Source: Chloroflexota bacterium
Lineage (GTDB): Bacteria > Chloroflexota > Anaerolineae > Promineifilales > Promineifilaceae
Reading direction: 5' to 3'
DNA: 64,000 nt
Assembly: GCA_022616275.1 (NCBI GenBank)
Contig: JAKEFB010000083.1
Coordinates: 20,718-84,717, forward strand
In this document: positions 1,935 through 24,750 of the stretch, in pieces
Position numbering within the stretch: the first letter of the stretch is position 1
Layout: each line of letters begins with the position of its first letter
Notes under the pieces: generated by a model
Seen by the model: the letters and a program-made list of their open reading frames with translations, nothing else
Database searches by the model: none
Told to the model about the DNA's origin: nothing
Translations under genes and position numbers: made by a program

Positions 1935-4900
1935 ATGGCTTTGAACCCACGTGTAGTGGATTCCTTCCAGCCGGAGACGCTTGTTGAACTCCTACGCTGG
2001 CGCGCCCAGCGCCAGCCCGACAATTTAGCTTATACGTTCCTGGTTGATGGTGAAACCGAAGAGATCAGCCTGACTTACGCCGAACTGGACCAGCGGGCCC
2101 GCTCGATTGCTGCCTGGCTGCAGCGCAAGAGTGCGGTCGGGGAACGGGTCTTGTTGCTCTACCCCTCAGGGCTGGATTATATTGCCGCCTTTTTCGGCTG
2201 CCTGTACGCCGGGGTGGTGGCCGTGCCCGCTTACCCGCCCCGGCTCAACCGGCCCTCAGCTCGTATCCAGGGCATTGTCGCCGACGCCGAAGCGACCGTA
2301 GCCCTGACGACGACCCAAATCCTGGACAACCTGGAGCGCCGCTTTGAACACGCCCCGGACTTGGCCGCGCTACGCTGGCTGGATACCGAGGAAATCCCGG
2401 CCGGCCTGGAAGCAGAGTGGCGGGAACCAACTGTAATCCCCGAGACCCTGGCCTTTCTGCAGTATACTTCCGGCTCGACCAGCGCCCCCAAGGGTGTCAT
2501 GCTGAGCCACGGCAACCTGATCCACAACCTGGCCGTGATTCGCCACGGTTTCCAAATAGATACTGCCAGCCAGGGGGTCTTGGGGGTCTTTTGGTTGCCC
2601 AGCTACCACGATATGGGCCTGATCGGCGGCATCCTGGAGCCGATGTACGTCGGCGGGTCGTCTTTACTGATGTCGCCGGCCGCTTTCTTACAGCGCCCAG
2701 CCCGCTGGCTGGAGGCCATCACCCGCTACCAGGGTGCGATCAGCGGCGCGCCCAACTTCGCCTACCAGTTGTGCGTGGAGAAGATCACCCCCGAACAACG
2801 CGCCGGCCTGGATCTGAGTAGCTGGCACACCGCTTTTTGTGGCGCTGAACCGATCCGGCCAAGCACGCTGGTCCAATTTGCCGAGGCCTTTGTCCCTTGT
2901 GGCTTCAACCCCCGCGCGTTTTACCCCTGCTATGGTCTAGCGGAAGGCAGCTTGCTGGTCTCCGGCGGTGATGGCCCGGCCGAGCCAACTATTTACACCA
3001 TCCGGGCCAGCGCCCTGGGCCAGAACCGGGCCACTCCGGCTGGGGAAACGGAGCAAGACGCCCAGAAAATGGTCAGTTGCGGCCATGCCCTCCTGGATCA
3101 GCAAATCGTCATTGCCAATCCGGAAACGATGAGCCGCTGCGCGGCCGGCGAGGTGGGCGAAATCTGGATGGCCGGGCCGAGTGTGGCCCAGGGGTATTGG
3201 GGCCGGCCGGAGCAGACGGCGGCCACCTTCCAGGCTTACCTGGCCGACAGCGGCGAGGGACCGTTTTTGCGTACCGGCGACCTGGGCTTCCTGCACGAGG
3301 GCGAACTGTACGTGACCGGCCGGCTAAAAGACCTGATTATCATTCGCGGCCGCAACCATTACCCCCAGGACCTGGAATTGGCGGCCGAGCAAAGCCACGA
3401 GGCCCTGGAGCCGCATATGGGCGCGGCTTTCTCCGTAGAAGTGAACGGCGAGGAGCGGCTGGTCATCGTTCACGAAGTCACTCGCCGCCATCGCAAGGTG
3501 GACGTCCGGGAAGTGGCAGCGGCCGTGCGCCAGGCCCTGGCCGAACAGCACGAAATACAGCTTTACGCCCTGACGCTGATTAAACCATTGAGCATCCCCA
3601 AGACTTCCAGCGGCAAAATCAAGCGTCACGCTTGCAAGCTCTGCTTCCTTGACGGCACGCTCGAAATCATCGGCCAGTGGCGCCTGGACGAGCCGAAGGA
3701 AGCAGCGCCGCAACCAGCCCAAACCGGCGAGACACTTGAAAAGCTCATAATCGGCGGTCAATCCAAAATCCAAAATCAAAAATCTAAAATCGAATCCTGG
3801 CTAGTCGAACAACTGGCGACGCGAGTGAACCTCTCGCCGGCCGGGATAGACATTCGCCAGCCCTTTGCCGCCTATGGCCTGGACTCGGTCCAGGCCGTCA
3901 GCCTGGCCGGGGAGCTGGAAAGCTGGCTCGGCCGCAGCCTGCCGCCGACGCTGGCCTGGGATTACCCGACTATTGCCGAGCTGGCCGCCCACCTGGCCGG
4001 GGACGAAACGCCCACTGAGACGGACAGCAGACAGCCGGCCGGCCGACATGTCTCCACCCACGAACCCATCGCCGTCATTGGCCTGGGTTGCCGTTTTCCC
4101 GGCGCGCCAGACCCCGACGCCTTCTGGCAACTGCTGCACGACGGCGTAGACGCCATCCGCGAAGTGCCGCCGGACCGTTGGGACGTGGACGCCTTTTACG
4201 CCGCCAAAGATGGTGTCCGGGGCAAAATGAACACCCGTTGGGGTGGTTTCCTGGACCAGATTGACCACTTTGACCCCCGCTTTTTTGGCATTGCCCCCCG
4301 CGAGGCCAGCCGCATGGACCCCCAGCAGCGGCTGTTGCTGGAAGTGGCCTGGGAAGCGCTGGAAAACGCCGGTCTGATCCCTGGCGACCTGGCCGAAAGC
4401 GCCACCGGCGTCTTTGTTGGCATCAGCAGCTACGACTACTCTCGCTTGCAGTTCAGCGACCCCGGCCAGATTGACGCTTACGCCGGCACGGGCAACGCCC
4501 ACAGTATTGCCGCCAACCGCCTCTCTTACCTGCTGGACCTGCGCGGCCCCAGCCTGGCCGTGGACACGGCCTGTTCCTCGTCCCTGGTGGCCATGCACCT
4601 GGCCATACAGAGCCTGCGTAACGGCGAATCGGACCTGGCCCTGGCTGGCGGGGTCAATCTGCTGCTGGCTCCCGAATTGACCATTACCTTTTCCCAGGCG
4701 CGGATGATGGCCGCCGACGGCCGGTGCAAAACCTTTGACGCCCGGGCCGACGGTTACGTGCGCGGCGAAGGCTGCGGCCTGGTGGTTCTCAAGCGGCTGT
4801 CCGACGCGCTGCACGACGGCGACAACGTCCTGGCCGTGCTCCGTGGCTCGGCCGTCAACCAGGACGGCCGCAGCAACGGCCTGACTGCCCCCAACGGGCC

Positions 4901-7900
4901 GGCTCAGCAGGCCGTCATTCGCCAGGCCCTGGCCGACGCCGAGGCTGACCCAGCGGCCATCAGTTATATAGAGGCCCACGGCACGGGAACGCCCCTCGGC
5001 GACCCCATCGAGATCCAGTCATTGCGCGCCGTTCTGGAGGATGGCCGGCCGGATGGCCAGAGCTGCCTCGTCGGTTCAGTCAAGACCAACGTCGGACACC
5101 TGGAGGCCGCGGCCGGTGTGGCCGGGCTGATCAAGGTCGTCCTGGCCTTGCAGCACGGCGAGATCCCGCCGCACCTGCACTTCCGGGAATTAAACCCGTA
5201 CATTTCCCTGGATGGGTCGCCGCTGGCTATCGCCACCGGCCGTTGCGCCTGGCCGGCTGGGGCCACGCCGCGCCTGGCCGGGGTCAGCTCCTTTGGCTTT
5301 GGCGGCACCAACGCCCACATCGTCGTCTCTGATTTCCAGCCCCAGGCGGGTGGCGGCCGGCCGGCGCCTGGCCTGGAACGCCCTTTACATCTGCTGGCCC
5401 TCTCGGCCCGGAGCGACCAGGCGCTGCAGGCGCTGGCCCGGCGTTATGAACGCTATCTGGCCGAAGCCAACCGGCCGGAACTCGCCCTGGCCGATGTGTG
5501 TTTCACGGCCAATACCGGCCGGACCTACTTTGACCACCGCCTGGCGCTGGCGGCCGGTTCGGCCGAGGCGCTGCAAGAGCGACTGGCTGCTTTCCTGGCT
5601 GCGCCTCGGCCAGGAGTTACTCCTAAAGATCGGCGGGTAGCCTTTTTATTCACCGGCCAGGGGTCGCAATACACGGGCATGAGCCGCCGGCTGTATGAAA
5701 CCCAGCCCACTTTCCGCGCCGCCCTGGACCGCTGCGCCGAGATTTTACAGCCTTATCTGGAACGGCCGCTTTTGTCAGCTCTTTTTGAGGCAGGCACGAC
5801 AAGCCTGGACCAGACAATCTACACCCAACCGGCCCTCTTTGCCCTGGAGTACGCCCTGGCCGAGCTATGGCGTTCCTGGGGCGTTGAGCCGGCTGTGCTT
5901 ATGGGTCACAGCGTCGGCGAGTACGTCGCCGCTTGCCAGGCCGGCGTGTTTAGCCTGGAAGACGGCCTGAAGCTGATTGCCGCCCGCGGCCGGCTAATGC
6001 AGACCCTGCCGCCGGGTGGAGAGATGGCGGCCGTTTTTGCCGGGCAGGATCAGGTGGCCGCGGCCATAGTCTCCTACGCCGGCCAACTCTCCATTGCCGC
6101 CGTGAATGGGCCGGAGAACGTCGTTGTGGCCGGCGAGGCCGCCGCCGTACGGGCTGTGCTGGCCGGGCTGGCGGCCGATGGTGTTGAGGCCCGGCCGCTA
6201 ACCGTCTCTCACGCCTTCCACTCGCCGCTGATGGAGCCAATGCTGGATGAATTTGAAGCGGTGGCGCGCGAAATCGCTTTCCGGCCGCCGCAGCGGCCGC
6301 TCATCTCCAACCTCACCGGCCGGCTATGGGCGGCCGGTGAAACGCCTGACGCCGCTTACTGGCGGGCCCACGTTCGCCAGCCGGTCCACTTTGCCGCCGG
6401 CATGGAAGCGCTGTTTGCCGAAGGGCTGGCCATTTTCCTGGAGATTGGCCCCCAACCCCACCTGCTGGGCCTGGGCCGCCGCTGCCTGCCCGCTGGCCAG
6501 GCGGCCGGGACGATGTTGTGGCTGCCCTCGCTGCGAGAGAAGCAGGACGACTGGGCGGTGCTGTTGGAGAGCCTGGCGGCGCTCTACACTGCCGGCGTGG
6601 CCGTAGACTGGACTGGCTTTGACCGGGATTATATCCGCCGGAAAGTAACTCTGCCGACGTACCCCTTTGAACGGGAACGTTATTGGTTGGAGGTTGCGCC
6701 CGGCCACCACGCCGGCCCAGGACGGGCCGGCCTGAGCGCCAGACAACCAGAAGCGCCGGCCGATTTGCATCCGTTGCTGGGCCAGCGCTTACGGGCGGCT
6801 GTGCCCATCTTTGAGGCCCGTTTTGACCCGGCCGGGCTGGTAGACCTGCCAACGACTTTTGGCGAGATGGCCCTGGCTGCGGCATTTGAGCTTTTTGGAC
6901 CAGGCCCGCACCGGTTGGAAGGGGTGACAGTGGCCGAAATGCGACTGGAAAGCGGCCCGGTGACCTGGCAGACGCTCCTGGCCCTTGACGGCGACCAGGC
7001 CATGACCTTCCAGATTTTTGCCTGGAAGGCCGGGGCGGAAGCCTGGCAGTTGCAAGCCAGCGGTCGTGTGTGGCGCGGCGCGGTGGCTGGCACGATGATT
7101 GAGCGGCAGCCAGAGGTAGAGCCGGCCGGCACAACCGGGCTAACCGGCCGGCCGGAAATTGAAGCGTTTCTTCGCCAGCGCGCGGCGCAGGTCCTGGGGC
7201 TACCGCCGGCTCAAGTTGGCCTGGACCAGCCGTTAGATGCGCTGGGGCTGGATTCATTGATGGCCATCGAGCTACGCAACGCGCTGGAAAATAGCCTGGG
7301 CGTTACCTTGCCGGTCGTCAATTTCTTGCAAGGCCCGACGATTACCGCCCTGGTCGGGCAGTTGTTGGAACTCCTGGCTGCGCCGCAAACGGCCGGGCCG
7401 GCCATCCGGCCGGTGGCGGCCGGGGGTCTGGCGCCGCTCTCTTACGGCCAGCAGGCGATGTGGTTCCTGCACCAGTTGCTGCCCGAAGACGTCTCCTTTA
7501 ACGTGGCTGGAGCGGTGCGCCTGCACGGGCGGCTGGATGTGGCTGCTCTCCGCCGGGCCTGGCAGCGGTTGGTAGAGCGCCACGCAGCGCTACGGACCAC
7601 TTTCCACGTAGTGGCTGGGCAGCCGGTGCAGCAGGTCCGGCCGGACCTGGCCGCGCCGCTGGACGAGGTGGACGCCACGACCTGGGACGAAACAGCCCTG
7701 CGCCACTTTCTGGAAGGGGAGGCCTACCGGTCGTTTGACCTAGAGCAGGGGCCGCTACTACGGTTGGTGCTGTTAGCCCGGTTGGCCGAAGAACACGTTT
7801 TACTGCTGTCGCTCCATCACATTGTGACCGATTTCTGGTCTATGTCGCTCCTCGTTCAAGAACTGCATTTACTGTATGCTGCCGAAACAGGAATGGAGGA

Positions 7901-10900
7901 AGCGACCCTGCCTCCATTAGAGTTGCAGTACGGCGACTACGTTTACTGGCAAAAAGAGCTGCTGGATGGGCCTGAGGGGGAGCGGGTACGGTCCTATTGG
8001 CTGAAGAAGTTATCTGGCGAGCTGCCTGCGTTAAATCTGCCTACCGACCGGCCGCGGCCAGCCGGCCAGACCTTTAAGGGCGCGCTCGCCAGCCGTCGCC
8101 TGAACCCGGCGCTGGCCCACCAGTTGAAAGCGGTCGGCCAGGCGCACGGAGCCACGCTGTACGTGACCTTGTTGGCTGCCTTCCAGGCGCTGTTGCACCG
8201 CTACACCGGCCAGGAGGAGTTGCTGGTCGGCTCGGTGGTCGCCGGCCGGGAGCGGCCGGAGCTGGCCGGGTTGATGGGCTACTTTATTAACCCGGTGGCT
8301 ATCCGGGCTGATTTTTCTGGCAACCCGACCTTCGGCGATTTCCTTAAGCAAGCTCGCCAGACCGTCCTGGAGGCGTTTGCCCACCAGGAATATCCGCTGC
8401 CGCTGCTGGCCGAGCGGCTGGCCTTTGAACGTGACCCCAGCCGGCCGCCGCTGTTTGAGACGATGTTCATCATGCAGAAAGCCCAGGTGTTGGAGGAGCA
8501 GGGGTTGAGCGCCTTTGCCCTGGGGCTGCCCGGAGCGCGGCTAACCCTGGGCGAACTGAGCGTCGAGTCTCTGGCCCTCGACGGGTTGCCGGCCCAGTTT
8601 GACCTGACGCTGATGATGGCCGAGCTGGACGGTGGCCTGGCCGCTACGCTGCACTATAACGCCGATCTCTTTGACCCGGCCACGATGGAACGAATGCTGG
8701 CCCATCTGGAGAGCCTGTTAGCTGGCATTGCTGTTATGCCGGACACGCCGGTGGCGGCCTTACCGTTGCTGGCCCCAACCGAGCGCCAGCAATTATTGGA
8801 GACGTGGAACCAGACGGCGGCCGACTACCCCCGCCACCTCTGCCTCCACCAACTGGTGGAAGCCCAGGCCGAACGGACGCCGGACGCGGTGGCCGTCTCT
8901 TATGATGATACTCACCTGACTTATGACGTGCTTAACCGGCGGGCCAACCAACTGGCCCGGGTTTTGCAGCAGGCGGGCGTCGGGCCAGAGTCGCTGGTAG
9001 CCATTGCCCTGGAGCGCTCGGCCGGCATCCTGGTTGGCCTGTTAGGGATTCTAAAGGCCGGTGGGGCTTACGTGCCCCTCGATCCCGCTTTCCCGCCGGC
9101 CCGGCTGGCTATGATGCTGGCCGACGCCCGGCCGGTAGTTCTCCTCACCAGCCGTGGCCTGGCTGAGACGGCCGTGGAAGGGTGGTTGGCTGAGGGTGAG
9201 CATCGGCCGGAGATCATTTACCTGGACGAACTCTATAGGGCGCATTTGAATGTGCCACCCGTTGGAGCGGGCGCTACAAACTTGAAGAGCGGCGTCCAGC
9301 CAGAGAACCTGGCTTACGTCATCTATACTTCCGGCTCGACCGGCCGGCCGAAGGGAGTGCAAATTCCCCACCGGGCTGTCGTTAACTTTCTGGCCAGCAT
9401 GGCCCGGCAGCCCGGACTATCCAGTGCAGACGTGCTGTTGGCGGTGACGACCCTATCCTTTGACATCGCCGGGCTGGAGCTGTTCTTGCCGCTGACGGTG
9501 GGGGCGCGGGTGGTCATTGCCAGCCGGGAGATGGCCGTCGATGGGACGCAGTTACAGGCGCTCATCAGGGCCTCGGGGGCAACGGTGATGCAGGCCACGC
9601 CGGCCACCTGGCGGATGTTGCTGGAGGCGGGCTGGGACGGCCAGCCGGGGCTCAAAATTCTCTGCGGCGGCGAGGCGCTGCCCCGCGACCTGGCCGACCG
9701 GCTCCTGGCCGGGGGCGCCGCCGTCTGGAATATGTATGGCCCAACGGAGACGACCATCTGGTCTACACTCTACCAGGTCCAGCCCGGCTGTGGGCTGGTC
9801 TCCATCGGCCGGCCGGTTGCCAACACCCAGGTCTACGTCCTGGACCAGGCCCTACAGCCGGTCCCGATCGGCGTGCCAGGCGACCTGTACATTGGCGGCG
9901 ACGGGGTGGCGCGGGGCTACCTCAACCGGCCGGGACTGACGGCCGAGCGCTTCGTCCCCAATCCCTTTCTGGCCGGCGCGCCGGGCCAGCCCACGCCGAT
10001 GCTCTACAAAACGGGCGACCTGGCCCGCTACCTGCCGGACGGCAACATTCTCTTCCTCGGCCGGGGCGACCACCAGGTGAAGGTCCGGGGCTATCGCATT
10101 GAGTTGGGCGAGGTTGAAGCGGCCCTGGCCCGGCACCCGGCCGTGCAGCAGAACGTGGTCGTGGCCCGGGAAGATCGGCCAGGAGAGCGGCGGCTGGTGG
10201 CTTACCTGGTGTTGAAGCCAGAGCCGGAAACGCCGCAAGCCGGCGAGTGGCGCGCTTTCTTGCGGGAGCGGCTGCCGGATTATATGGTCCCGGCTGCCTT
10301 TGTTATCCTGGAGGCGCTGCCCCTGACGCCCAACGGCAAGGTCAACCGGCGCGCCCTGCCGGCCCCGGCCGGCGTCCAGGCCCGGGGCACGGATTACGTC
10401 GCGCCGCGCACGCCCCTGGAAGAGCAACTGGTAACCCTCTGCGCCAGCGTCCTGGGCCAGGCCCAGGACGGCGACCGGCCGCCGTTGGGTGTCAACGACA
10501 ATTTCTTTGACCTGGGCGGGAACTCTCTGCTGGCTACCCGCCTGATCTTCCAGGTGCGGGAAACGTTCCAGGCCCAGGTGCCGCTGCGCTACCTCTTTGC
10601 CGAACCGACGGTAGCCGGCCTGGCCAAAGCCGTGGAAGTGGGGCGGGAGATAGGCCAACGGCCGGTCAGCGGCTCCCCAACCAGCAATGGCTCGTCGGCC
10701 AATGGTCATTCTCGGCTGTCTTTGTTTGAGACTGTAACGGTGGCCGAGTTAAACGCCGAAGCAAAGCTGGACCCGGCTATTACCGCGAGCGAATTGCCTG
10801 GCAATCCGCCTTTTATCTTCCCGGCCCGGCCGGCGCACATCTTCCTGACCGGGGCTACCGGCTTCGTGGGCGCTTTCTTGCTGCACGATCTGCTACAACA

Positions 10901-11918
10901 GACCCGGGCCACCCTCCATTGCCTGGTGCGGGCCGATGACCCCTCCGCCGGCCGGCGCCGGCTGCAGCAGAACCTGGAAGTCTATGGCTTATGGGATGAG
11001 CGTTTTGCGGAACGGATTGAGCCGGTGACTGGCGACCTGGGCCGGCCGCGTTTTGGCCTGTCTGAAGCGGTGTTCCGGCGACTGGCCGATACCGTTGAGG
11101 TAATCTACCACAACGGGGCGCTGGTCAACTTCATCTACCCCTATACCGCCCATAAGGCAGCCAACGTCCTCGGCACCCAGGAAGCGCTGCGACTGGCCGT
11201 CCAGGGGCGGTTGAAGCCGCTCCACTTTGTCTCGACCCTGTCTGTCTTTCACACCGGCGGCCATGACGACGGCGTCGTCTATTCCGAAGCGGAAGACCTG
11301 GACAGGGTAGGCGCGCCGTTTGGCGGCTACGCCCAGAGCAAGTGGGTGGCCGAAAAGCTGGTCATGGCGGCTCGTGAGCGGGGCATTCCGGTAGCCATAT
11401 ACCGGCCGGGGCTGGTCTCCGGCCATAGCCAGACCGGCGCCTGGAACACCGACGACATGATGTCTACCCTGGCCCGGGCCAGCTTCCTGGCCGGCGTGCT
11501 GCCCGACCTGGACGTGATGGTGGACGTGGTCCCGGTGGATTACGTCAGCGGGGCCATTGTTCGCCTGTCACAACAGCCGGGCTCGCTGGGCCGAGTTTTC
11601 CACCTGACCAACCCCCGGCCGATGGCCTACCGGGAGTTGGTCGGGTGGGTGCGCTCGCTGGGGCTGGACGTGCAGCCGTTGCCCTTCGTCGAGTGGCGGC
11701 AGCGCCTGGCCGACCTGGCCCGCCAATTTGGCGGCAACGCCTTTCTGCCGCTCCTGGAAGAGGTCACGGCCGACCAGGTGTTTATGCCGGCTTTTGACTG
11801 CAGCAACACCCTGGCCGGGCTGGCCGGCAGCGATCTGCATTGCTCGCCGGTTGGCCCGGAATTACTGGCTACCTACCTGGCTTACTTTACTGAAAAGGGG
11901 CTGATTGTAGGAGATTAG
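1935..11918 (+). CDS. Hybrid NRPS-PKS: FAAL-ACP-KS-AT-(degenerate DH)-ACP-C-A(Gly)-PCP-reductase, 3327 aa
   Basis: This is a complete single-protein assembly line. Order seen: fatty acyl-AMP ligase (about 1-600, [11 protein letters not shown]); ACP (Ser651 in GLDSVQ); ketosynthase (about 710-1135, Cys880 in DTACSSS, then EAHGTGT and KTNVGH histidines); acyltransferase (about 1230-1555, Ser1326 in GHSVGE, and HAFHS, the malonyl-CoA type motif); a short dehydratase-like piece (about 1610-1725) without a catalytic His motif; ACP (Ser1774); condensation domain (HHIVTD, His1962); adenylation domain (about 2310-2800) whose ten specificity positions read DILQLGMIWK, one change from a classic glycine code; PCP (Ser2864); and a reductase domain (about 2970-3327, GATGFVG, Tyr3132/Lys3136). 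No ketoreductase or thioesterase is seen. Expected chain: fatty acid, one malonate unit left as 3-oxo, then glycine, released by NAD(P)H reduction as an aldehyde or alcohol. The PPTase at 14277 is the likely activator. The ATG follows a weak AAGGGA box. The FAAL-ACP linker holds an AT-rich word repeat. Confidence 0.96.
3761..3797 (+). repeat. In-frame microsatellite-like word repeat in the FAAL-ACP linker
   Basis: Near-copies of CCAAAATC / CTAAAATC are strung together in an otherwise GC-rich gene and encode a short Ser/Lys/Ile/Gln-rich linker ([13 protein letters not shown]) between the acyl-AMP ligase and the first carrier domain. The same words build the hairpin at 32186-32230. Confidence 0.8.
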
Positions 11919-12075: not shown

Positions 12076-12756
12076 ATGACTGCAACAAGACCTTTGTCGC
12101 GTACCTGGCACTACGGCCTGCTCTGGCTGCTTGCCCTCCTTTCTCTTTTATTCAACGCTGTTCTGATCATTACTTTGTTGAGCCTGCGGGCCCAGGCTCG
12201 CGAGGAGGTCAACCAGGCCATTGAAATCCTCAACGAAGCTACACTGGAAAATTTCGACTTGCCCGTTCACGTAGACGAGACGCTGGCCATCTCTATGACC
12301 GTTCCCTACAGCGACACCTTTGTCGTGCCAATCAGCGCCACCGTGCCGGTGTCTACCTCGGTCTTGTTTAAGGACAACATTCAGGTACCGATTGATACCA
12401 TTATCCCGGTGAACACGACGGTTCACGTGCCGGTAGACATCCCGGTGGCCGGCCGGGTGACGATACCGATTCCTATTTTCACCAATATCCCTGTGAGCCT
12501 GACGGTAGAAGTACCGATCAGCCGGACCATCCCGGTGCGAACTGACATCCCCGTAGACTTGATGGTGACGATTCCGGTGCAAAGTGAGATACCGATCCAA
12601 ACCGACGTGCCGGTGCTCCTGGACTTTCCGGTGACCATCCCCCTCAGTGAATTGGGCTTTCAGGCTTTAGTAGAGCAGTTGCAGGAGGCACTGGCCGCCA
12701 TGGCCGAAATGTTGGGCGGCCCACCGCCGGCGCCAGCACCGGCGCCAGGCTCGTAG
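12076..12756 (+). CDS. Membrane-anchored protein with about 15 (V/I)P(V/I) repeats
   Basis: The 226-residue protein starts at an ATG preceded by AAGGA seven bases upstream; an in-frame TTG at 12070 is a poorer choice. Residues about 12-40 form a membrane segment (LLWLLALLSLLFNAVLIITL). From about 70 to 195 it is built of short beta-prone units, each with a (V/I)P(V/I) turn every 6-10 residues (VPISATVPVSTSV, IPVNTTVHVPVDIPV, IPVRTDIPVDL and so on). A short helix and a Pro/Ala tail end it. This suggests an extracytoplasmic beta-solenoid or fibre-like rod held in the membrane by its N-terminus. I do not recognise a named family and assign no function. It is the next gene downstream of the NRPS-PKS, separated by a hairpin, and converges with the glycosyltransferase. 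Confidence 0.85.
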   Translation: MTATRPLSRTWHYGLLWLLALLSLLFNAVLIITLLSLRAQAREEVNQAIEILNEATLENFDLPVHVDETLAISMTVPYSDTFVVPISATVPVSTSVLFKDNIQVPIDTIIPVNTTVHVPVDIPVAGRVTIPIPIFTNIPVSLTVEVPISRTIPVRTDIPVDLMVTIPVQSEIPIQTDVPVLLDFPVTIPLSELGFQALVEQLQEALAAMAEMLGGPPPAPAPAPGS

Positions 12757-12861: not shown

Positions 12862-14142
12862 TTAAACCCCCACGTAGCTGTGGAAAAGCTCGACGGCCAG
12901 GGCGACGCCGTTTTCGGCCGCGACTTGCCGGCCGATGGCGGCGGCGCGCTGGCGCATAGTGAGGTTGTAGACCGCCTCGCGGATGGCCTCGGCCAGCCGG
13001 CCGGCGGTCAATGCCGGGCGGGGGATAGGCGGCGGCCCGGCCCCCAGGGCGGCCACGCGCCGGCCCCAGAAATATTGATCGGCAAAGTGGGGCACGACGA
13101 TATTGGGCACACCGGCCCGCAAGCCGGCCCCGGTGGTGCCTACCCCGCCGTGGTGGACGATGGCCGCCATCCGGGGCAGCAGCCAGCCGTGGGGGGCGCT
13201 TTCCAGGACAAAGACGTTGTCCGGCACGGGTGAATTTGTGCCCAGCCCGCTCCAGCCGGAGGCCAGCAGGCCGCGCTGGCCGGATAAAGCCAGCGCCTCC
13301 AGAATGAGGGCGTCCGTTTCCTGGGCCTTGCGCGGGTTGCCCATACTGCCAAAGCCGACGTAGACCGGCGGCGGGCCAGCCTGGAGAAAAGCGACCAGGG
13401 CCGCATCGGGCTGCCATTCCCCTGGCGGTTCCAGGAACCAGTAGCCGGTGACGTGAACGTGATCCGGCAAATCTGATGGGGTTGGCAGCACGGTCGGGCT
13501 GTAGCAGCAGAGAATCGGCCGGCGCTCCCGGAGCAGTTGCCAGTAAGGGCTGGTGAAGCCTACCCGGCCGGCGCCTTGCCCGGCGACCTGGCCCCGGCCG
13601 TTGACCAGCGCCTGGGCCGACGGCCGGTATAGTTGCCAGCTAAACTGTTCCAGGACCAGGTGAGAGAGCAGGTTGAAGGCCCGGCCGGGGCTGCGCTCTA
13701 TGTTGAGCGGTAGGCAGGGGTGGGCTCTTGTTGGCAACGGATACATGCTGGCCGGCAGGCAGGGAAGGCCCAGTTGCTGGCCGATAGTGTAAGCCGCCGG
13801 CAGGGTAAAGGTGTGGTAGACGATAGCTTCACTCCCCTGGCAGGCGGCCCAGGCGTCCTGCAACAATGGCTTAAGCGTCGGCCGGATGGCCCGGACGGTG
13901 TTAAGGGCCAGCTTGAGCGGATTGTTTGATTCCAGCCAGGCCTGCCCTTGCTGTTGCTGGACGAAGGCCAGCGAATCTACCTGGAGGGGGAAAAACTCCA
14001 GCCCGTAACCGGCTACCAGGGTGCTAAAATTGGCGTTGGCGGCAAAACGAACGGTGTGGCCGGCCTTGTGCAGGGCTACGGCCAGGGCCAGGTACGGTTG
14101 GATGTCGCCGCGTGAGCCGGCCGCCAGGACGGTAATTTTCAT
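12862..14142 (-). CDS. GT1-family glycosyltransferase (sterol/macrolide UGT-like), 426 aa
   Basis: The N-terminus MKITVLAAGSRGDIQPYLAL is the start typical of the sterol-glucosyltransferase/MGT group: a GSRGD(I/V)QP motif, then VALHKAGHTVRFAA. The C-terminal nucleotide-binding half has VYVGFGSM, then PHGWLLPRMAAIVHHGGVGT and PHFADQYFWG, the donor-binding signature with HHGGxGT and a D-Q acceptor/donor pair. Such enzymes move a sugar from a nucleotide sugar to a lipid or secondary metabolite in the cytoplasm. Between the NRPS-PKS and its PPTase, it may glycosylate the product of the locus, but it lies on the opposite strand and a housekeeping glycolipid role is equally open. The start codon has no strong ribosome-binding site; the N-terminal motif fixes it. 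Confidence 0.9.
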   Translation of the reverse strand: MKITVLAAGSRGDIQPYLALAVALHKAGHTVRFAANANFSTLVAGYGLEFFPLQVDSLAFVQQQQGQAWLESNNPLKLALNTVRAIRPTLKPLLQDAWAACQGSEAIVYHTFTLPAAYTIGQQLGLPCLPASMYPLPTRAHPCLPLNIERSPGRAFNLLSHLVLEQFSWQLYRPSAQALVNGRGQVAGQGAGRVGFTSPYWQLLRERRPILCCYSPTVLPTPSDLPDHVHVTGYWFLEPPGEWQPDAALVAFLQAGPPPVYVGFGSMGNPRKAQETDALILEALALSGQRGLLASGWSGLGTNSPVPDNVFVLESAPHGWLLPRMAAIVHHGGVGTTGAGLRAGVPNIVVPHFADQYFWGRRVAALGAGPPPIPRPALTAGRLAEAIREAVYNLTMRQRAAAIGRQVAAENGVALAVELFHSYVGV

Positions 14143-14276: not shown

Positions 14277-15008
14277 TTGGTGGAGTGGCTTGTAGCGCCG
14301 GTTGAGCTGGTCTTGGGGCCGGCCGAGGTTCATGTCTGGCGGGCCTGGCTGGAGCAGCCGGATAACCTCTTTGACCAACTGGCCCGGACGTTGTCCGAGG
14401 ACGAACGGGCCAGGGCAGCGCGCTTTAAGTTTGAGAAAGACCGGCGGGCGTACACCATTGCCCGGGGCGTCCTGCGCGCGCTGCTCGGCCGCTACCTGGG
14501 CCGCCGGCCGGAAGAGGTTGGCTTTATCTACACCCCTCACAACAAGCCGCTCCTGGCCGAGGCGTCACCTCTCTCCTTCAATCTCTCCCACTCCCACCAA
14601 CTGGCCTTGCTGGCCTTTACCCTGGACCGGCTCGTCGGCGTGGACGTGGAATACGTGCGGGCCATGCCGGACGCGGCCGGGCTGGCCGAACGGTTTTTCT
14701 CACCTGCCGAGTACGCCGCCTGGCGGGCCGTCCCGGCCGAACAACAGCCACTGGCCTTCTTTAATTGCTGGACGCGCAAAGAAGCCTTTGTCAAGGCCCT
14801 GGGGGAGGGCCTGACTCACCCGCTGGACCAGTTCGACGTTTCACTGGCCCCGGGAGAAGCAGCTCGCCTGCTGGCCGTTGCCGGTAGCCGGGCCGAAGCC
14901 GCTCGCTGGTCGTTGGCGGCCTTCACGCCCGCCTTCCACTACGCCGCCGCTGTGGCCGTCCAGGAACGCGGGCCATTGCTCATTCGAGGCTTTGAATGGC
15001 CGGGTTAA
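14277..15008 (+). CDS. Sfp-type 4'-phosphopantetheinyl transferase
   Basis: The 243-residue protein has the two signature motifs of the Sfp/AcpT superfamily: VGVDVEYVR (about residues 121-129, metal-binding D and E) and WTRKEAFVKALGEGL (about 163-177, K-E-A-x-x-K). It moves the phosphopantetheine arm of CoA onto the serine of carrier domains, here most likely the three carriers of the NRPS-PKS. Length (about 240) is normal for the Sfp group. The start is uncertain: TTG 14277 or GTG 14280, both abutting the repeat array with no clear ribosome-binding site. The gene converges with the kinase gene on the other strand and their 3' ends overlap by 29 bases (14980-15008). Confidence 0.92.
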   Translation: MVEWLVAPVELVLGPAEVHVWRAWLEQPDNLFDQLARTLSEDERARAARFKFEKDRRAYTIARGVLRALLGRYLGRRPEEVGFIYTPHNKPLLAEASPLSFNLSHSHQLALLAFTLDRLVGVDVEYVRAMPDAAGLAERFFSPAEYAAWRAVPAEQQPLAFFNCWTRKEAFVKALGEGLTHPLDQFDVSLAPGEAARLLAVAGSRAEAARWSLAAFTPAFHYAAAVAVQERGPLLIRGFEWPG

Positions 15009-17133
15009 GAATGTCCAGGGACTCGTTGACGGCCGTTCGCGCCGGTCCCCACTGGCTGAAGGGAATAGTGCCGCTGCCGGTGCCCAAAATCGTGCGGCAA
15101 TTTTCGGCTAGGTCGCGCACTCCGTTAGTGAACCGGGCTACGGACTGGCGGTATTGCTCGTGGGCGGACTGCACGTCAGCCCCACTGCCGGCCACGTTAA
15201 AGCTGGGGGCATTGGCCACCCGGTCGTAAACGGTCACAACGTCCGAACAGTCAATGAAACCGCTGTTGACGGCGCTGTCAATCATGCCGCCCATGTTCTC
15301 CATGTCGCCGCGGGTGCTTCTCATCTGGGTCAGCAGGCTGTTACGAACGTTGGGCGGGATGGGTGTGGGGCTGGCGGCCGGCGGCTGGGTCGGCACGGCC
15401 GTGGGCGGGTTAACCACGACCGGCGCTTCCACGGTAAAGGTGTCCAGGGCGCGGGCCAGGACTTCGCCGTCCTCTTCCGACAGGACGTAAGCTTCCAGCC
15501 AGAGTGCGTAAACCGGGTTTTCGGGGTCGTAAGCCAGGAGGAGGGTGTACTCCCCCTGGTCACAAGGCGCGGCGAGGATAACGCCGACAAAAAGGCCATC
15601 GTCATAATCGTTCTGGTTGTTAATATCTCCCTGGCAGTTGTCCGGCCAGGTGTAACTTTCCAGGAACGTGTCAATAAAGGCTCCATCAACGCTCTGGCCG
15701 TCTTCCAAATCCTCGAAGACGAACAGGAACAGGCCGGGTACAGTCACGCTGCCTTCTCGTTCACCGGCAAAACCTTCCAGCCAGACAGTCACATTTGGTG
15801 AGCCCAGCACGACCAGTTCTTCCGTTTCGTTCTGCCATTGTTCCGGCAGCTCCAGGCCCAGCCGGCCGCTCCGGTCTTCCACCCGGGAAAAATTGAGCAC
15901 GACCCTGGTGGGGACGGGCGTATCCGTGGGCGTGGCGGTGGGCGTGGCGGTCGGCGGTGGCGGGGTATTCGTTGGTGGTTCGGCCGTGTTGGTCGGTGGG
16001 GCCGTGGTGGCCGTCGCCGTAGAAACCTGGGCCAGCGTAGTAGTCGTAGCCTGCGGGGTTTCCCTGTCGTTGCCGGTCAGGAAAACGCCGCCTGCAATCG
16101 CTCCGCTTATCCCCAGGGCCAGGCAGAGCAATAGCAGTAGACCACCGCCAATCCAGGCCCAAATGGGAACCCCGCGCCGCCGGGGCGCGGCGGCCGGCGG
16201 GGCGGCGATTTCGGTGGCGGGCCGGGCCGGGGCCGGGGTGGGGGATTCAATCACCGTGGCTGTGACTGGCCGGTGCTGCTCAATGATCGTGCCTTCCAGC
16301 GCTGCCGGTTTGGCCAGCACGCCGGTGGCGGCCTGAGCCAGCTCTTCAGACAACGACGTGGCCGTGTGGTAACGTTCTTCCCGGTTCTTGGCCAGAGCCT
16401 TAGACACGACCATATCGTAAGCCGGAGGGATGTCTGGCTTCATCTGGCGGAGCTGCGGCACCGGGTTGAGCACGTGGGCCATCATCAACCGGGCCGGGGT
16501 ATCGGCTTTGAAAGGACTTTGCCCGGTCAGCATTTCAAAGAGGATGATACCCAGGGCATAAATGTCGCTCCGGCCGTCCAGGTCCTTTTCACCGTGGATC
16601 TGCTCCGGGCTCATATACGCCGGTGTACCAATGATGGCGCTGCCGGTGAAAGTCGAGCTGGACTCGGCCAGCTTGGCAATGCCGAAGTCGGTCAGAAAAG
16701 CGTTGCCCTGGTTGTCAAAGAGGATATTGCCCGGTTTCAGGTCGCGGTGGATGATGCGCTGGCGGTGGGCGTAATCCAGGGCCGAACTGATGCGACTTAA
16801 AACTTCCAGCACGTCGCTGGTGGGCAGGGGGCCGGCTCGCATCCGGTCTAGCAAGGAGCCGCCAGGCATGTGGCGCATCACCAGGAACGGTTGCTCGCCC
16901 TCATAGCCAAAGTCGTACACCGGTACAATGGCTGCATGCTCCAGTGCGGCAATAGTTTTCGCTTCGCGCTCAAACCGGCCGCGAAACGAGGGATCATGTA
17001 GAAACTGCCGGGACAGGACCTTGAGGGCCACGTTCCGGCCGAAGCTGGGGTCGTGAGCCAGGTAAACGGTAGCCATGCCACCCCGGCCGAGTTCCGATTT
17101 AATCTCATAGCGCCCAATCTTTTGGCCGTTCAT
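14980..17133 (-). CDS. Transmembrane Ser/Thr protein kinase (1 of 4), unknown ectodomain
   Basis: The 717-residue PknB-type kinase has a glycine loop ([13 protein letters not shown]), catalytic Lys38 (VALKVL), HRDLKPGN with Asp131, and DFGIAKL with an activation loop rich in Ser/Thr. A membrane segment sits at about 322-348, followed by a Thr/Pro-rich stalk (about 365-405). The outside part has a first domain (about 405-560, PsbP/DUF-like beta fold by appearance) and a helical C-terminal part (about 590-717) that I do not recognise. It signals by phosphorylating Ser/Thr in the cytoplasm in response to an outside cue. ATG 17133 follows GGAAGGTGG. It is the last gene of the minus-strand kinase run. 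The 3' end overlaps the PPTase. Confidence 0.93.
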   Translation of the reverse strand: MNGQKIGRYEIKSELGRGGMATVYLAHDPSFGRNVALKVLSRQFLHDPSFRGRFEREAKTIAALEHAAIVPVYDFGYEGEQPFLVMRHMPGGSLLDRMRAGPLPTSDVLEVLSRISSALDYAHRQRIIHRDLKPGNILFDNQGNAFLTDFGIAKLAESSSTFTGSAIIGTPAYMSPEQIHGEKDLDGRSDIYALGIILFEMLTGQSPFKADTPARLMMAHVLNPVPQLRQMKPDIPPAYDMVVSKALAKNREERYHTATSLSEELAQAATGVLAKPAALEGTIIEQHRPVTATVIESPTPAPARPATEIAAPPAAAPRRRGVPIWAWIGGGLLLLLCLALGISGAIAGGVFLTGNDRETPQATTTTLAQVSTATATTAPPTNTAEPPTNTPPPPTATPTATPTDTPVPTRVVLNFSRVEDRSGRLGLELPEQWQNETEELVVLGSPNVTVWLEGFAGEREGSVTVPGLFLFVFEDLEDGQSVDGAFIDTFLESYTWPDNCQGDINNQNDYDDGLFVGVILAAPCDQGEYTLLLAYDPENPVYALWLEAYVLSEEDGEVLARALDTFTVEAPVVVNPPTAVPTQPPAASPTPIPPNVRNSLLTQMRSTRGDMENMGGMIDSAVNSGFIDCSDVVTVYDRVANAPSFNVAGSGADVQSAHEQYRQSVARFTNGVRDLAENCRTILGTGSGTIPFSQWGPARTAVNESLDILNPAIQSLE

Positions 17134-17180
17134 CGCTCTTTACCACCTTCCCTATTCATACACTCTAACTCTCACTCTAG

Positions 17181-17206
17181 CCGGGTTTTGGCCTTACCAA
17201 AACCTG
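17181..17206 (-). terminator. Short hairpin between kinase genes
   Basis: CCGGGTTTTGG and CCAAAACCTGG pair (one mismatch) around a 4-base loop. It lies about 11 bases after the stop of kinase 2 and before kinase 1. No T-run follows on the minus strand, so termination would be weak. Confidence 0.5.
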
Positions 17207-17216
17207 GCCCTAGCTC

Positions 17217-19175
17217 CTACGGATAACGTAGCTCCAGGTTATCAAATTCAAATGTGCCCAGGTCGCCCGTCTCGGCCAGGGAGACGGCTACGCCCAACTG
17301 GCCGGCCGCCAATGTATCGTCCGTGTAGTCGCCGACGTACTGGCTGTTGATATAGAAATAATAGCGGGAATTCACGGCGACGACAGTCAACTGGTTAACG
17401 GCGCGAGGCTGAATGGCCGGGCTGGTTGTCCAATCAATCAAGGTTACCCATTCGCCGTCTAATTGCAAGGAAAAGCGGAAACGGCCGCTGTCCTCCACCC
17501 GGAAAATGTAGAAATTATTGACGTCTACGTAGCGGAAAATAAGGCCGTAAGAAGCGTCGGCGGGGCCACTGATCAACTGGGCTTCGGCCGAGAAGTAAAA
17601 GTCGCTGTCGTTCTCAAGCTGTTCGTTGACGCACCACCAGATAAAATCGCCCAGGGCTTCGGCGTCCCAACGGTATTTGCCACCGCTAATATTGTTTTCG
17701 CCCTCAACCCGGCTGTCGTTCTGAACCCCACTGCACCACTCGTTTTGGTTGAGGCTAAAGCTATCCTGTAAAAAGAGGGGCCAACCAGACGCTTCCAGGC
17801 GCACCGATTCGGCTTCGACGACTACGGCCGTGGCCGAGGCGGCCGCCGTAGCTGAGGCGGCGGCGCGGGCGGTGAGCGTCGCCCCGATAATGGCGGTAGC
17901 CGTAGCCTGGCTGGCAGCCGCGGCCGTGGCCCGGGCCTGCGCCGTGGCCGTCACCTGGCTATCGGCCGTGGCCTGGGCGTTGGCTGTGGCGACCGCTATC
18001 TCCTGGGCGACGGCCGTGGCCGTAGCGGCCGCGGCCTGGGTAGCTACCACCTGGGCGGTAGCTGTCTTTTCCTCGGCCACGCGGGTGCCACGGGCCAGGC
18101 TGGCCGCCAGCAGCCCGCCGCCGCCCAGCGCCAGCGCCACCAGGCTGCTGACCACCAGGCAGCCTAGCAGAAAGATCCAGGGCATGCGCCGGGCCGGCGC
18201 CGGGGCCGGCTCAGCAACCGGTGCTGGTGGCTGGGCTATGTCGCGCCGGGGAGGCGCCGGAGGGGCAGCCACCGGCTGCTGGTCCCGAATCGTTGGCCGG
18301 TTGGTGGGTACCGGTTCAATCACCGTGGCCGCGTGGCGGGATGGAGGTGAGGGTCTGGCTGGTTGTTGGGTGGCGACCTTCAAAGCAGCGGCCATGGCCC
18401 CGGCCGTGGTAAAACGTTTACCGCGATCTTTAGCCATCGCCTGTTCAACTACCTGCTGGCAGGCCGGCGGTAAGTCTTGCTTTACCTGGCGCACATCCGG
18501 CACCGGGTTGAGGACGTGGGCCATCATCACCTGGGCCGGCGTATCGGCGTCATAAGGAACCCGGCCGGTGAGCATTTCGAAGACGATAACGCCCAGGGAA
18601 TAGATGTCGCTGCGGCCGTCCAGCTCCTTTTCGCCGTGGATCTGCTCCGGGCTCATGTAGGTGGGCGTACCGATAATGGCGTTGCCGGTGAAGGTGGCCG
18701 TAGACTCGGCCAGCTTGACAATGCCGAAGTCAGAGAGGAAGGCGTTGCCGTGCTGGTCGAAGAGGATATTGCCCGGCTTCAAGTCGCGATGAATGATACC
18801 CTGGCTATGAGCGTAGTCGAGGGCTGAGCCAATGCGGCGAATGATTTCAGCCACTTCTTCGACTGGCACGGGGCCGGCCTGCATCCGTTCCAGCAGCGTG
18901 CCACCCTGCATGTAGCGCATCACCAGGAATGGCTGGCCATTGTCTTCGCCAAAATCATATACCGGGGCAATAGCCGGGTGCTCCAGCCGGGCAATTGTCC
19001 GGGCCTCCCGTTCAAAGCGGCCGCGGAAGGTCGGGTCGTGCAGGAATTGTTCCGGCAGAACTTTCAGGGCTACGCTCCGGCCGAAAACAGGGTCGTGGGC
19101 CAGGTACACCGCAGCCATGCCACCCCGCCCCAACAGCGATTTAATTTCGTAGCGACCAATTTTTTGCGAAACCAT
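17217..19175 (-). CDS. Transmembrane Ser/Thr protein kinase (2 of 4) with Ala/Thr stalk and LamG/DUF1080-like domain
   Basis: The kinase domain (about 1-270) has [27 protein letters not shown] and DFGIVKL, and is close to the other three kinases here. A Pro-rich juxtamembrane stretch leads to a membrane helix at about 331-360. Outside, a low-complexity Ala/Thr/Gln helix-prone stalk (about 365-455, ATAQ-type units) carries a C-terminal domain (about 475-652) with FSLNQNEWCSG and YGLIFRYVDVNNFYIFRV, the look of concanavalin-type 3-keto-disaccharide hydrolase/LamG-like sugar-binding domains. A carbohydrate or cell-wall ligand is therefore likely. ATG 19175 is preferred to the in-frame TTG three bases earlier. 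The preceding intergenic repeat (19192-19258) would form the leader hairpin. Confidence 0.92.
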   Translation of the reverse strand: MVSQKIGRYEIKSLLGRGGMAAVYLAHDPVFGRSVALKVLPEQFLHDPTFRGRFEREARTIARLEHPAIAPVYDFGEDNGQPFLVMRYMQGGTLLERMQAGPVPVEEVAEIIRRIGSALDYAHSQGIIHRDLKPGNILFDQHGNAFLSDFGIVKLAESTATFTGNAIIGTPTYMSPEQIHGEKELDGRSDIYSLGVIVFEMLTGRVPYDADTPAQVMMAHVLNPVPDVRQVKQDLPPACQQVVEQAMAKDRGKRFTTAGAMAAALKVATQQPARPSPPSRHAATVIEPVPTNRPTIRDQQPVAAPPAPPRRDIAQPPAPVAEPAPAPARRMPWIFLLGCLVVSSLVALALGGGGLLAASLARGTRVAEEKTATAQVVATQAAAATATAVAQEIAVATANAQATADSQVTATAQARATAAAASQATATAIIGATLTARAAASATAAASATAVVVEAESVRLEASGWPLFLQDSFSLNQNEWCSGVQNDSRVEGENNISGGKYRWDAEALGDFIWWCVNEQLENDSDFYFSAEAQLISGPADASYGLIFRYVDVNNFYIFRVEDSGRFRFSLQLDGEWVTLIDWTTSPAIQPRAVNQLTVVAVNSRYYFYINSQYVGDYTDDTLAAGQLGVAVSLAETGDLGTFEFDNLELRYP

Positions 19176-19191
19176 CAAACTGACACTGTAA

Positions 19192-19258
19192 GAGATTGGA
19201 GATTGGAGAATAGAGATTAGAGATTGACCTAATCTCCAATCTCTAATCTCTAATCTCC
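19192..19258. repeat. Hairpin of GGAGATTAGAGA words between kinases 3 and 2
   Basis: Direct near-repeats of GATTGGAGA / TAGAGATTAGA (19195-19226) are followed by their inverted copies (AATCTCCAATCTCTAATCTC, 19230 on). The array fills the gap between the two kinase genes and can form a stem of more than 20 pairs. Confidence 0.8.
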
Positions 19259-19261
19259 CAT

Positions 19262-21172
19262 TTAACGCAAGGTAAGAGTACCCCAGGATGCCGGGTTGGT
19301 CAACGTCCGGCCGGCAACGTTCGACATCATCACTTCTTGAACGGCCTCGCCCGGCCGGTCGTTGTCGTTGGCGTTCAGGGCCAGCCCCAGCGCCAGACCG
19401 GGGACCGCCGTAACCCGCAAGTCGGCCCAGGGAATGGCTGCCTCCAGGATGTAACCCTGGCCGGCCGGTTGGGCGGCCAGGACAATGTTGTGGTCGGGTG
19501 CATCCACGATCTGGCCGTCAGCATTGGCGGTAAAACGGAAGACGGAAGGCGGCAAAGCGCCAAAATCGCCTGGCGAGAAGATGATCTGGAAGTCGTCCGG
19601 GCTGAGGCCGGTGCCGTAATCGCCGGTCAGGTCGGTGTCAATTTGCATATCCAGGCTGTCCCCCCGGAAGATCAGATCGCCGCTTTGGGTCTGGACGTGC
19701 CTATCGTCGCCGACTTCCACGGCCACGTAAAGATAATCATTATCCCAACCCAGCCGCCAGACGGCTGTCAAGTCTTCGCTGCCATTCCAATTACTGTCGC
19801 TGTGAACGAAGAAGGAGGACGCGACGGCGGGATAACCATCCCATTCCGCCAGAATGCCGTCTATCACCGGCTGGCTGTCTCGCCGGCGCGCTTCGACAGT
19901 GCCGAGGCCGGCCGGACCGGCGGTCGCGGTTGGCGTCGTTGCCGCAGGCGTGTCTGTGGCCGCTGCCGTTTCTGTTACTGTGACGATATTGCCGGCAACT
20001 ACCGCGGTGGCCGGCGGGCCGGTCGCGGCCGTTGTTGGGATGCCGCTAGGTAGGGCGACGGAGGTGGGTTGATCAGGCCGCCAAAAGAGATACAGGCCAA
20101 ACAGGCCGGCGGCCGCTAAAAAGAGCAGCGCCACAGCGGCGACGCCCCAGACCCACAGCGGCGCTCGCCGGCCGGCCGAGCCCGGACGCTCGGCCAGGGG
20201 TTCGGCCGGCAGCGGCCAGCCAAACTCATCTACCGCATCGTGGCCCGATTTGCCAGAGCGCGATACAGGAAGTTCGGCCGCATCGTGGCCCGAGGCGAAA
20301 CCGGAGTTCGGCCGCCGAACTCTTTTCGCTCTGCCAAATCGCGATACAGGAGGTTCGGCGGCTACAGCGGCCAGGGCGGCGCTCATGGCCCCGGCCGTGG
20401 CATAGCGCTGCTCCCGGTTTTTGGCCATCGCCGTTTGGATCACGCTGTCGCAGCCGGGCGGGAGATCCGGCCTGGTGTCCCACAGGCGGGGCGTCGGCTC
20501 AGTGATCTGTTTGACCACCAGGCCCATTGGTGTATCAGCCTGGTACGGCGGTTCGCCGGTCAGCATCTCAAAGAGAATAGCCCCCAGGGCGTAAACGTCG
20601 CTCCGGCCGTCCAGGCTGGCCTCGCCTTGAGCCTGCTCCGGGCTCATGTAAGCCGGCGTGCCGACGATGTGGCTACCCGTCAGAGCGGTTGGCGCTTCGG
20701 TGACCTTGACAATACCAAAATCGGATAAAAAGGCGTTGCCGTCCTGGTCAAAGAGGATATTGGCCGGCTTTAAGTCACGATGGACGATACCCCTGGCGTG
20801 GGCCTTGTCCAGGGCCGGGCCAATCCGTTCCAGGATGGCCGTGGCCCCCTGGAGCGAAAGCGGCCCGTGGCGCAGGCGGTCGGCCAGGGTACCGCCGGCC
20901 ATCAGGCGCATGACCAGGTAGGGCTGATCCTCGTGCTCGCCAAAGTCGTAAACCGGGACGATGGCGGCGTGTTCCAGGGCGGCGATAGTGCGGGCCTCGC
21001 GCTCGAAACGGGCCCGGAAAGTGGGCCGGTGCAGAAAGGCGGCCGGCAAGAGCTTGACGGCTACGTCCCGGCCGAAGCGAGGATCGTGCGCCCGGTAGAC
21101 GGTAGACATACCACCCTGGCCCAGCTCGGCAATAACCTGGTAGCGGCCGATGGTGCGGGGGAGAACGCTCAT
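19262..21172 (-). CDS. Transmembrane Ser/Thr protein kinase (3 of 4) with CBM9-like ectodomain
   Basis: The kinase domain (about 1-270) has LGQGGMSTVYRAH, VAVKLL, HRDLKPAN and DFGIVKV. Residues about 285-330 hold a short internal repeat (PVSRFGRAKR / PVSRSGKSGH) not found in the sister kinases. The membrane helix is at about 335-360. After a Thr/Pro stalk the outside domain (about 435-635) begins PVIDGILAEWDGYP and continues with WDNDYLYVAVEVGDD, DSLDMQID and EAAIPWADL, the pattern of family 9 carbohydrate-binding/DOMON-like beta-sandwiches. It probably senses a glycan or small ligand outside. ATG 21172 has no strong ribosome-binding site and lies just after a repeat hairpin, as does kinase 2. 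Confidence 0.93.
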   Translation of the reverse strand: MSVLPRTIGRYQVIAELGQGGMSTVYRAHDPRFGRDVAVKLLPAAFLHRPTFRARFEREARTIAALEHAAIVPVYDFGEHEDQPYLVMRLMAGGTLADRLRHGPLSLQGATAILERIGPALDKAHARGIVHRDLKPANILFDQDGNAFLSDFGIVKVTEAPTALTGSHIVGTPAYMSPEQAQGEASLDGRSDVYALGAILFEMLTGEPPYQADTPMGLVVKQITEPTPRLWDTRPDLPPGCDSVIQTAMAKNREQRYATAGAMSAALAAVAAEPPVSRFGRAKRVRRPNSGFASGHDAAELPVSRSGKSGHDAVDEFGWPLPAEPLAERPGSAGRRAPLWVWGVAAVALLFLAAAGLFGLYLFWRPDQPTSVALPSGIPTTAATGPPATAVVAGNIVTVTETAAATDTPAATTPTATAGPAGLGTVEARRRDSQPVIDGILAEWDGYPAVASSFFVHSDSNWNGSEDLTAVWRLGWDNDYLYVAVEVGDDRHVQTQSGDLIFRGDSLDMQIDTDLTGDYGTGLSPDDFQIIFSPGDFGALPPSVFRFTANADGQIVDAPDHNIVLAAQPAGQGYILEAAIPWADLRVTAVPGLALGLALNANDNDRPGEAVQEVMMSNVAGRTLTNPASWGTLTLR

Positions 21173-21181
21173 GAGTTAAGG

Positions 21182-21238
21182 GATTGGAGATTAGAGATTG
21201 GAGATTGGTTAATCTCCAATCTCCAATCTCTAATCTCT
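21182..21238. repeat. Near-perfect hairpin of GGAGATTAGAGA words upstream of kinase 3
   Basis: GATTGGAGATTAGAGATTGG and its continuation (21182-21206) are followed, after a GGTT loop, by the inverted copy AATCTCCAATCTCCAATCTC (21211 on). It lies between the LysM peptidase gene and kinase 3. Confidence 0.85.
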
Positions 21239-21244
21239 ACTAGA

Positions 21245-24747: not shown

Positions 24748-24750
24748 GGC

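Follow-up and report, generated by a model that had tools for sequence, protein, structure and literature searches.

A predicted one-protein, fatty-acid-primed polyketide-peptide synthase with reductive release and an apparently paired FHA-ABC transporter in a Chloroflexota bacterium

What can a bacterium make with one protein that seems to carry a whole assembly line, and where does the product go? This question is raised by a 64,000-nt stretch of DNA from a Chloroflexota bacterium of the family Promineifilaceae (GenBank assembly GCA_022616275.1, contig JAKEFB010000083.1, positions 20,718–84,717 of the forward strand; hereafter the window, numbered from its first letter), in which a single open frame at 1935–11918 (+), with an ATG start and no internal stop, encodes a synthase of 3327 aa. 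The best overall explanation, to which we assign a probability of roughly two in three, is that this polypeptide is a polyketide synthase–non-ribosomal peptide synthetase (PKS-NRPS) hybrid primed by a fatty acyl-AMP ligase (FAAL), that it releases its product reductively, and that a divergently encoded transporter with FHA and ATP-binding cassette (ABC) domains exports this product. Together, synthase and transporter would probably make and ship an undescribed lipid.

The domain order obtained with Pfam and NCBIfam models was FAAL-ACP-KS-AT-ACP-C-A-PCP-R, where ACP and PCP are acyl and peptidyl carrier proteins and KS, AT, C, A and R are ketosynthase, acyltransferase, condensation, adenylation and reductase domains. 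In Pfam terms this corresponds to AMP-binding, PP-binding, ketoacyl-synt N/C, Acyl_transf_1, PP-binding, Condensation, AMP-binding, PP-binding and NAD_binding_4, and ketoreductase (KR, PF08659) and thioesterase (TE) domains were absent from the synthase (19 families at E ≤ 0.01). A chance origin of this layout can be ruled out, because domain E-values reached 1e-163 and full-length relatives keep the same arrangement. An N-terminal FAAL and an ACP precede a cis-AT PKS module, which places the protein among FAAL-primed type I PKS-NRPS hybrids.

Active-site residues were kept in the KS, AT, C (HxxxD), A and R domains, and the carrier serine was also present. The FAAL (aa 8–580, window 1956–3674, +), predicted to activate a free fatty acid, was recognised by fatty-acid-AMP ligase models of NCBIfam spanning approximately the first 580 aa and by PF00501, which matched two stretches of the protein. 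Three stretches matched PF00550: ACP1 (aa ~620–692, 3792–4010, +; YGLDS with Ser651) and the PCP (aa ~2830–2895, 10422–10619, +; DLGGNS), both positioned from the alignment, and ACP2 (aa 1745–1808, 7167–7358, +; LGLDS), which gave the best of the three. The KS (aa 710–1083, 4062–5183, +; PF00109 and PF02801) carried Cys880, His1015 and His1055 as catalytic residues. The AT (aa 1237–1556, 5643–6602, +; PF00698) displayed the motifs GHSVG (Ser1326) and HAFHS, which we take to be of malonyl type. The C domain (aa 1833–2288, 7431–8798, +; PF00668 and family alignment) contained HHIVTDF, with second His and Asp kept; the A domain (aa 2309–2802, 8859–10340, +) was matched by PF00501/PF13193, and the terminal thioester reductase (aa 2968–3324, 10836–11906, +; Tyr3132/Lys3136) by TIGR01746 with 357.9 bits. 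Ahead of ACP1, an AAAATC-type short tandem repeat lies in the coding frame (3764–3791, aa ~609–620); the 11-residue stretch that it encodes had no counterpart in the relatives.

Relatives of the synthase were collected by searching with its PCP-R part, with counts that include the bacterium's own genome at each rank. At E ≤ 1e-140, 5 of 400 genomes of the phylum and 7 of 397 of the class were returned (20 at E ≤ 1e-40 and 14 at E ≤ 1e-80, respectively), and 5 of 53 family genomes were matched at E ≤ 1e-80. All candidates were scored in the family R search, and the top four per genome in the class R search. A scan of genome contigs confirmed two of 71 candidate stretches, both from Chloroflexi contigs. 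In total, ten synthases were compared: that of the window, seven full-length ones (retrieved stretches L054, L055, L058, L059, L060, L061 and L065), one split over two contigs (L056 and L057) and one partial (L066), which opens at the edge of its contig and loses its frame before R is complete. Identity to the window synthase was 57–66%, and that between any two rows 51–78%. As far as they reach, the relatives (seven full-length, two partial) keep the same domain order. KR, TE and dehydratase (DH) families were not found at E ≤ 0.001 in any of the seven full-length relatives or in the partial sequences L056 and L066, so that the absence of a ketoreductase, asserted for the window synthase in a preliminary description of this DNA, holds there and in all nine relatives scanned. 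Judging by these alignments, the synthase is a conserved family and not a one-off.

The ten specificity letters of the A domain, located by motif position rather than by a trained predictor, read DILQLGMIWK. The preliminary description had placed this code one change away from a known glycine code, which is incorrect: it is an exact published one, common to four glycine-activating A domains with MOX characteristics (PMC12283262). The domain is thus predicted to activate glycine, a prediction supported by the ten-letter match. Across the family, the pattern DILQLG[MVL][IV]WK was present in all nine rows that span the ten positions, and L056 and L057, each covering the code in part, agreed where covered.

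Two features of the synthase were considered as possible oddities. All ten rows covering the site of the C motif (window 7815–7847, aa 1961–1971) read xHxxTDFW; at x the window has His, seven rows have Asp, and one row each has Asn and Ser. A pattern scan of 18 other loci returned 12 strings in nine loci, of which 11 were HHxxxD, followed by Gly in six cases and by another residue in five; the remaining string probably comes from something other than a C domain. Since other C domains also vary after the Asp (5/11), Phe in place of Gly was rejected as a peculiarity of the family, and it is the missing first His of the relatives that appears unusual. The second feature is a weak N-terminal dehydratase-like stretch between AT and ACP2 (aa 1612–1696, 6768–7022, +; PKS_DH_N, PF21089, E = 0.0012, with 19.2 bits where the cut-off is 27). 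On inspection by eye it lacked the catalytic His motif. Four of the seven full-length relatives (L058, L059, L060 and L061) have a short linker in its place. On the strength of the low score, the missing motif and these linkers a functional dehydratase was rejected; the stretch looks vestigial and is probably a linker. A structure model from the single sequence was too poor for use (mean pLDDT 42).

On this basis, the following route may be proposed. The FAAL would adenylate a free fatty acid and load it onto ACP1; the AT would load malonate onto ACP2, and the KS would condense the acyl chain with malonate once. Because there is no ketoreductase, the chain would stay 3-oxoacyl. The C domain would then couple it to glycine on the PCP, and the R domain would reduce the thioester off with NAD(P)H, so that the first product, as far as the released species can be deduced from the domains, would be a 3-oxoacyl-glycinal. 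FAAL priming, extension by one malonate, lack of a KR, use of glycine and reductive release had all been anticipated in the preliminary description, and the domains, motifs and exact glycine code bear them out. The FHA-ABC transporter would most likely export or flip the product, and Ser/Thr kinases would act through its FHA domains.

What becomes of the aldehyde depends on the R domain and on the chemistry of the chain. We tentatively favour, at a little under even odds, spontaneous closure, between the aldehyde and the activated CH2, to a 3-acyl-pyrrolin-2-one or a reduced form of it. A ring is preferred over an open-chain alcohol because, with no KR in any scanned relative, the CH2 group would stay between two carbonyls, as closure needs. 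The bacterial precedent for such closure, which the preliminary description proposed without naming one, is mutanoclumpin: labelling studies led to the proposal that its terminal R domain sets an aldehyde free by two-electron reduction and that an aldol condensation then readily closes this aldehyde into a five-membered lactam. Production continued when putative biosynthetic genes within the cluster or close to it were disrupted (PMC12403116).

The second likeliest fate, which we regard as possible, is a four-electron release, in which a second reduction by R turns the aldehyde into an N-(3-oxoacyl)ethanolamine, a lipid that resembles N-acylethanolamines and has no ring. Among solved structures (six chains at E ≤ 1e-20) the closest to the window R domain was that of MxaA (4u7w; E = 2.9e-102, 345.9 bits), followed by 8v1x (278.7 bits), and the MxaA domain is cited for production of primary alcohols, by way of a title that PMC5826065 lists among its references. 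Against this stands the ready cyclisation proposed for the comparable aldehyde of mutanoclumpin (PMC12403116). A single site lends no support to either outcome: Asp occupies it in 8v1x and in two carboxylic acid reductase (CAR) chains, 5msc and 5mso, and Gly does so in MxaA, 4dqv and the window R domain, but across the 35 R domains of the retrieved loci (window included) Gly occurred in 33 and Ser in two, and Gly versus Asp was dropped as a way of telling alcohol from aldehyde release. A product other than pyrrolinone or ethanolamide seems unlikely.

The second part of our explanation concerns the gene directly upstream of the synthase. It is divergent from it, and the window holds its 5′ part (1–1560, −); the gene runs off the left end, and in full (L069:3508–7278) encodes a membrane transporter of 1256 aa that combines four FHA domains with an ABC ATPase and an ABC2 membrane domain and matches ABCG2 over residues 520–1003. 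FHA-ABC genes with three or four FHA matches also lie directly upstream in L054, L055, L058, L060, L061 and L065 (the contig of the last holds only the FHA part), and in L059 (genome G332) such a gene is found ~8 kb off, on the other side of the synthase. Overall, an FHA-ABC gene was within ~10 kb of the synthase in 8/8 judgeable loci, L056 and L066 (the latter with no upstream sequence) being left out. Behind the FHA-ABC gene, on the same strand, a small gene that by eye resembles a lipoprotein is followed by a Ser/Thr kinase, both in the window's own genome and in L055, and the neighbours in G332 and G414 are similar.

Co-occurrence across genomes points the same way. Among the 53 genomes of the family, the R search and a search with FHA-ABC (E ≤ 1e-150, up to 12 candidates scored per genome) returned the same five, G000, G406, G407, G414 and G750 (hypergeometric 3.5e-7, or 1.1e-4 by genus, 4/23, with ancestry ignored in both). 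In the class sample (n = 397), the seven orthologue genomes all fell within the nine with an FHA-ABC membrane part at E ≤ 1e-150 (up to three candidates scored per genome; 1.2e-13, ancestry again ignored), the remaining two being G406 and G461. With looser cut-offs in the class, 14 R genomes and 17 FHA-ABC genomes overlapped in eight, leaving nine FHA-ABC genomes without such an R and six R genomes without such a transporter. In G406 a different, smaller synthase (C-A-PCP-R, 36% identical) was located on the same contig as FHA-ABC, ~4 kb away; that stretch (L080) also holds a free ketoreductase-like short-chain dehydrogenase/reductase (SDR) and a flavin halogenase-like gene. A second FHA-ABC copy of the window's own genome is ~3.3 kb from another FAAL-PKS cluster (L078 and L079, contig C200), which contains an HMG-CoA-synthase-like and two enoyl-CoA-hydratase-like genes and is presumably of beta-branching type. 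From this gene context, FHA-ABC is apparently paired with the synthase as an exporter carrying phospho-reading domains. The transporter link is new here; the preliminary description mentioned neither the transporter nor the conserved family nor the type II thioesterase of the relatives, described below.

That the transporter lies outside the system, the linkage merely reflecting shared ancestry of the genomes, is an explanation to which we give a low probability. It would fit the confinement of carriers to few genera, and the occurrence of FHA-ABC with no synthase part in stretches of 11–19 kb: L100 (G461), L102 (G435) and L103 (G423). It fits less well with the identical sets of 5/53 genomes and 4/23 genera, the proximity in every judgeable locus and the second copy beside another FAAL-PKS. 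Weakest is the proposal that the chain is reduced in trans or that another small amino acid is used, giving a 3-hydroxyacyl amino alcohol or similar by columbamide-like logic: the free SDR/KR gene of G406 (L080:8598–9497), beside a different C-A-PCP-R synthase, would be a model for it, but no KR/SDR other than R itself was found among the 27 window ORFs scanned with Pfam (part of the window's ORFs), none was found among the scanned neighbours of the synthase's relatives, and the glycine code is exact, all of which makes it improbable.

Beyond the alcohol-forming MxaA domain and the transporters found apart from synthases, several further points weigh against the explanation that we prefer. One more such transporter lies in L101, an 11-kb contig of G414 with no synthase part; this is the genome of L056, which has its synthase on another contig. 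The product has never been observed, and a ketoreductase encoded elsewhere in the cell may act in trans. The published DILQLGMIWK domains carry a monooxygenase, and the window synthase contains no monooxygenase domain (PMC12283262). The first His of the C motif is replaced, by D, N or S, in 9/10 rows. A type II thioesterase gene lies directly downstream in all nine other synthases (by flanking-ORF clustering, with PF00975 matching the three copies tested by Pfam; in L066 the gene is truncated where the contig stops), and the window has none beside its synthase, two homologues (50% and 47% identical) being on other contigs of its genome. The direct upstream neighbour is Lon in L059 and a kinase in L056, where the contig ends, rather than the transporter, and the co-occurrence figures ignore shared ancestry, with some of the searches scoring top candidates only.

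Precedents exist for each element of the proposed system: the assembly logic is known from mutanoclumpin, MxaA and columbamide, and the Rv1747-PknF pair is an analogue for a kinase-linked FHA-ABC exporter. Fungal PKS-NRPS enzymes form pyrrolinones by reductive release and Knoevenagel closure, although, unlike the window synthase, they use an iterative PKS and other amino acids and have no FAAL. In myxalamid biosynthesis (Stigmatella) the terminal NRPS module of MxaA, which ends in the closest solved R domain, also follows a PKS, but a long PKS lies upstream, the product is an alanine-derived amino alcohol and there is no FAAL on the same protein. Columbamide formation in cyanobacteria starts with a FAAL and ends with reductive serinol release. 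To our knowledge, no FHA-ABC transporter accompanies the mutanoclumpin synthase, Rv1747 has not been linked to a FAAL-PKS-NRPS, and few natural products come from Chloroflexota; one of them, auriculamide, is reportedly of a different build.

In the columbamide pathway (ColF/ColG), ColG joins a polyketide to one amino acid (PMC12184294), but the polyketide is reduced, tandem methyltransferase domains are present and several proteins are involved (in part from PMC12184294). The mutanoclumpin synthase McgI/A/B/C of oral bacteria is predicted to start from decanoic acid through a FAAL, and after its last ketide extension come a single amino acid and a terminal R domain, whose aldehyde would give the five-membered lactam; unlike the window synthase it comprises several proteins, has extra Phe and Glu modules and ends in Ser instead of Gly (PMC12403116). 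In Rv1747 of Mycobacterium tuberculosis, FHA domains are fused to an ABC exporter whose cargo is suspected to be glycolipids, and the operon also encodes the Ser/Thr kinase PknF (PMC3908365, PMC5549992). The same domain make-up is present here, with FHA domains, an ABC nucleotide-binding domain, an ABCG-type membrane domain and a Ser/Thr kinase two genes on along the same strand, the difference being two FHA domains in Rv1747 versus three or four in the Chloroflexota transporters. In line with the earlier remark that no described Chloroflexota product of this layout was known, none was found among the open-access papers listed by literature searches; a FAAL domain is recorded in one Ktedonobacteria cluster (PMC6497799).

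Between the starts of transporter and synthase lies a 24-bp inverted repeat (1594–1656; 96% complementary, 15-nt loop) that folds at −54.5 kcal/mol (z = −7.5) and is not repeated elsewhere in the window, followed by a second one of 16 nt (1858–1914). A conserved promoter palindrome was rejected, as five of six related intergenic stretches had no inverted repeat and L060 had two shorter ones of other sequence.

Downstream, a Sfp/HetI-type phosphopantetheinyl transferase (14277–15008, +; PF01648; NF042922 at 231.9 bits, below the cut-off of 370) is likely to activate the carriers, and similar genes stand beside the synthase in L058, L059, L060 and L061 (by similarity, one confirmed by Pfam). The gene at 12076–12756 (+) encodes a protein that has a hydrophobic helix at its N-terminus and contains VPV/IPV repeats; its membership in the system is uncertain. 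Homologues are found beside the synthase in L055 and L057, and close ones, besides that of the window's own genome, in G407 (60%), G406 (53%; on another contig and with one internal stop) and G414 (49%). As a specific partner it was rejected, weak relatives being present in 77/397 class genomes (own included), and a structure model from three sequences was too poor for use (mean pLDDT 49). A GT1-type, EryCIII-like glycosyltransferase (12862–14142, −) beside the synthase, considered as a tailoring enzyme, fell in no flanking-ORF cluster of three or more loci. Four Ser/Thr kinases are encoded in the region 14980–25584, one carrying a CBM9 domain and another PD40 propeller repeats, alongside a LysM protein and a PP2C phosphatase.

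Taken to its full extent, the proposal would describe a conserved Chloroflexota lipid system: a single enzyme would make an acyl-pyrrolinone (or acyl-ethanolamide) lipid, and a kinase-switched, dedicated FHA-ABC transporter would move it to the envelope or the outside; in this complete form we consider it doubtful. A single protein that converts a free fatty acid into a reactive 3-oxoacyl glycinal would offer a compact, testable system for the question of aldehyde versus alcohol release by R domains. If the transporter link is true, a biosynthetic line would be coupled through its export step to Ser/Thr kinase signalling, and a phosphorylation signal would gate the export of a natural product.

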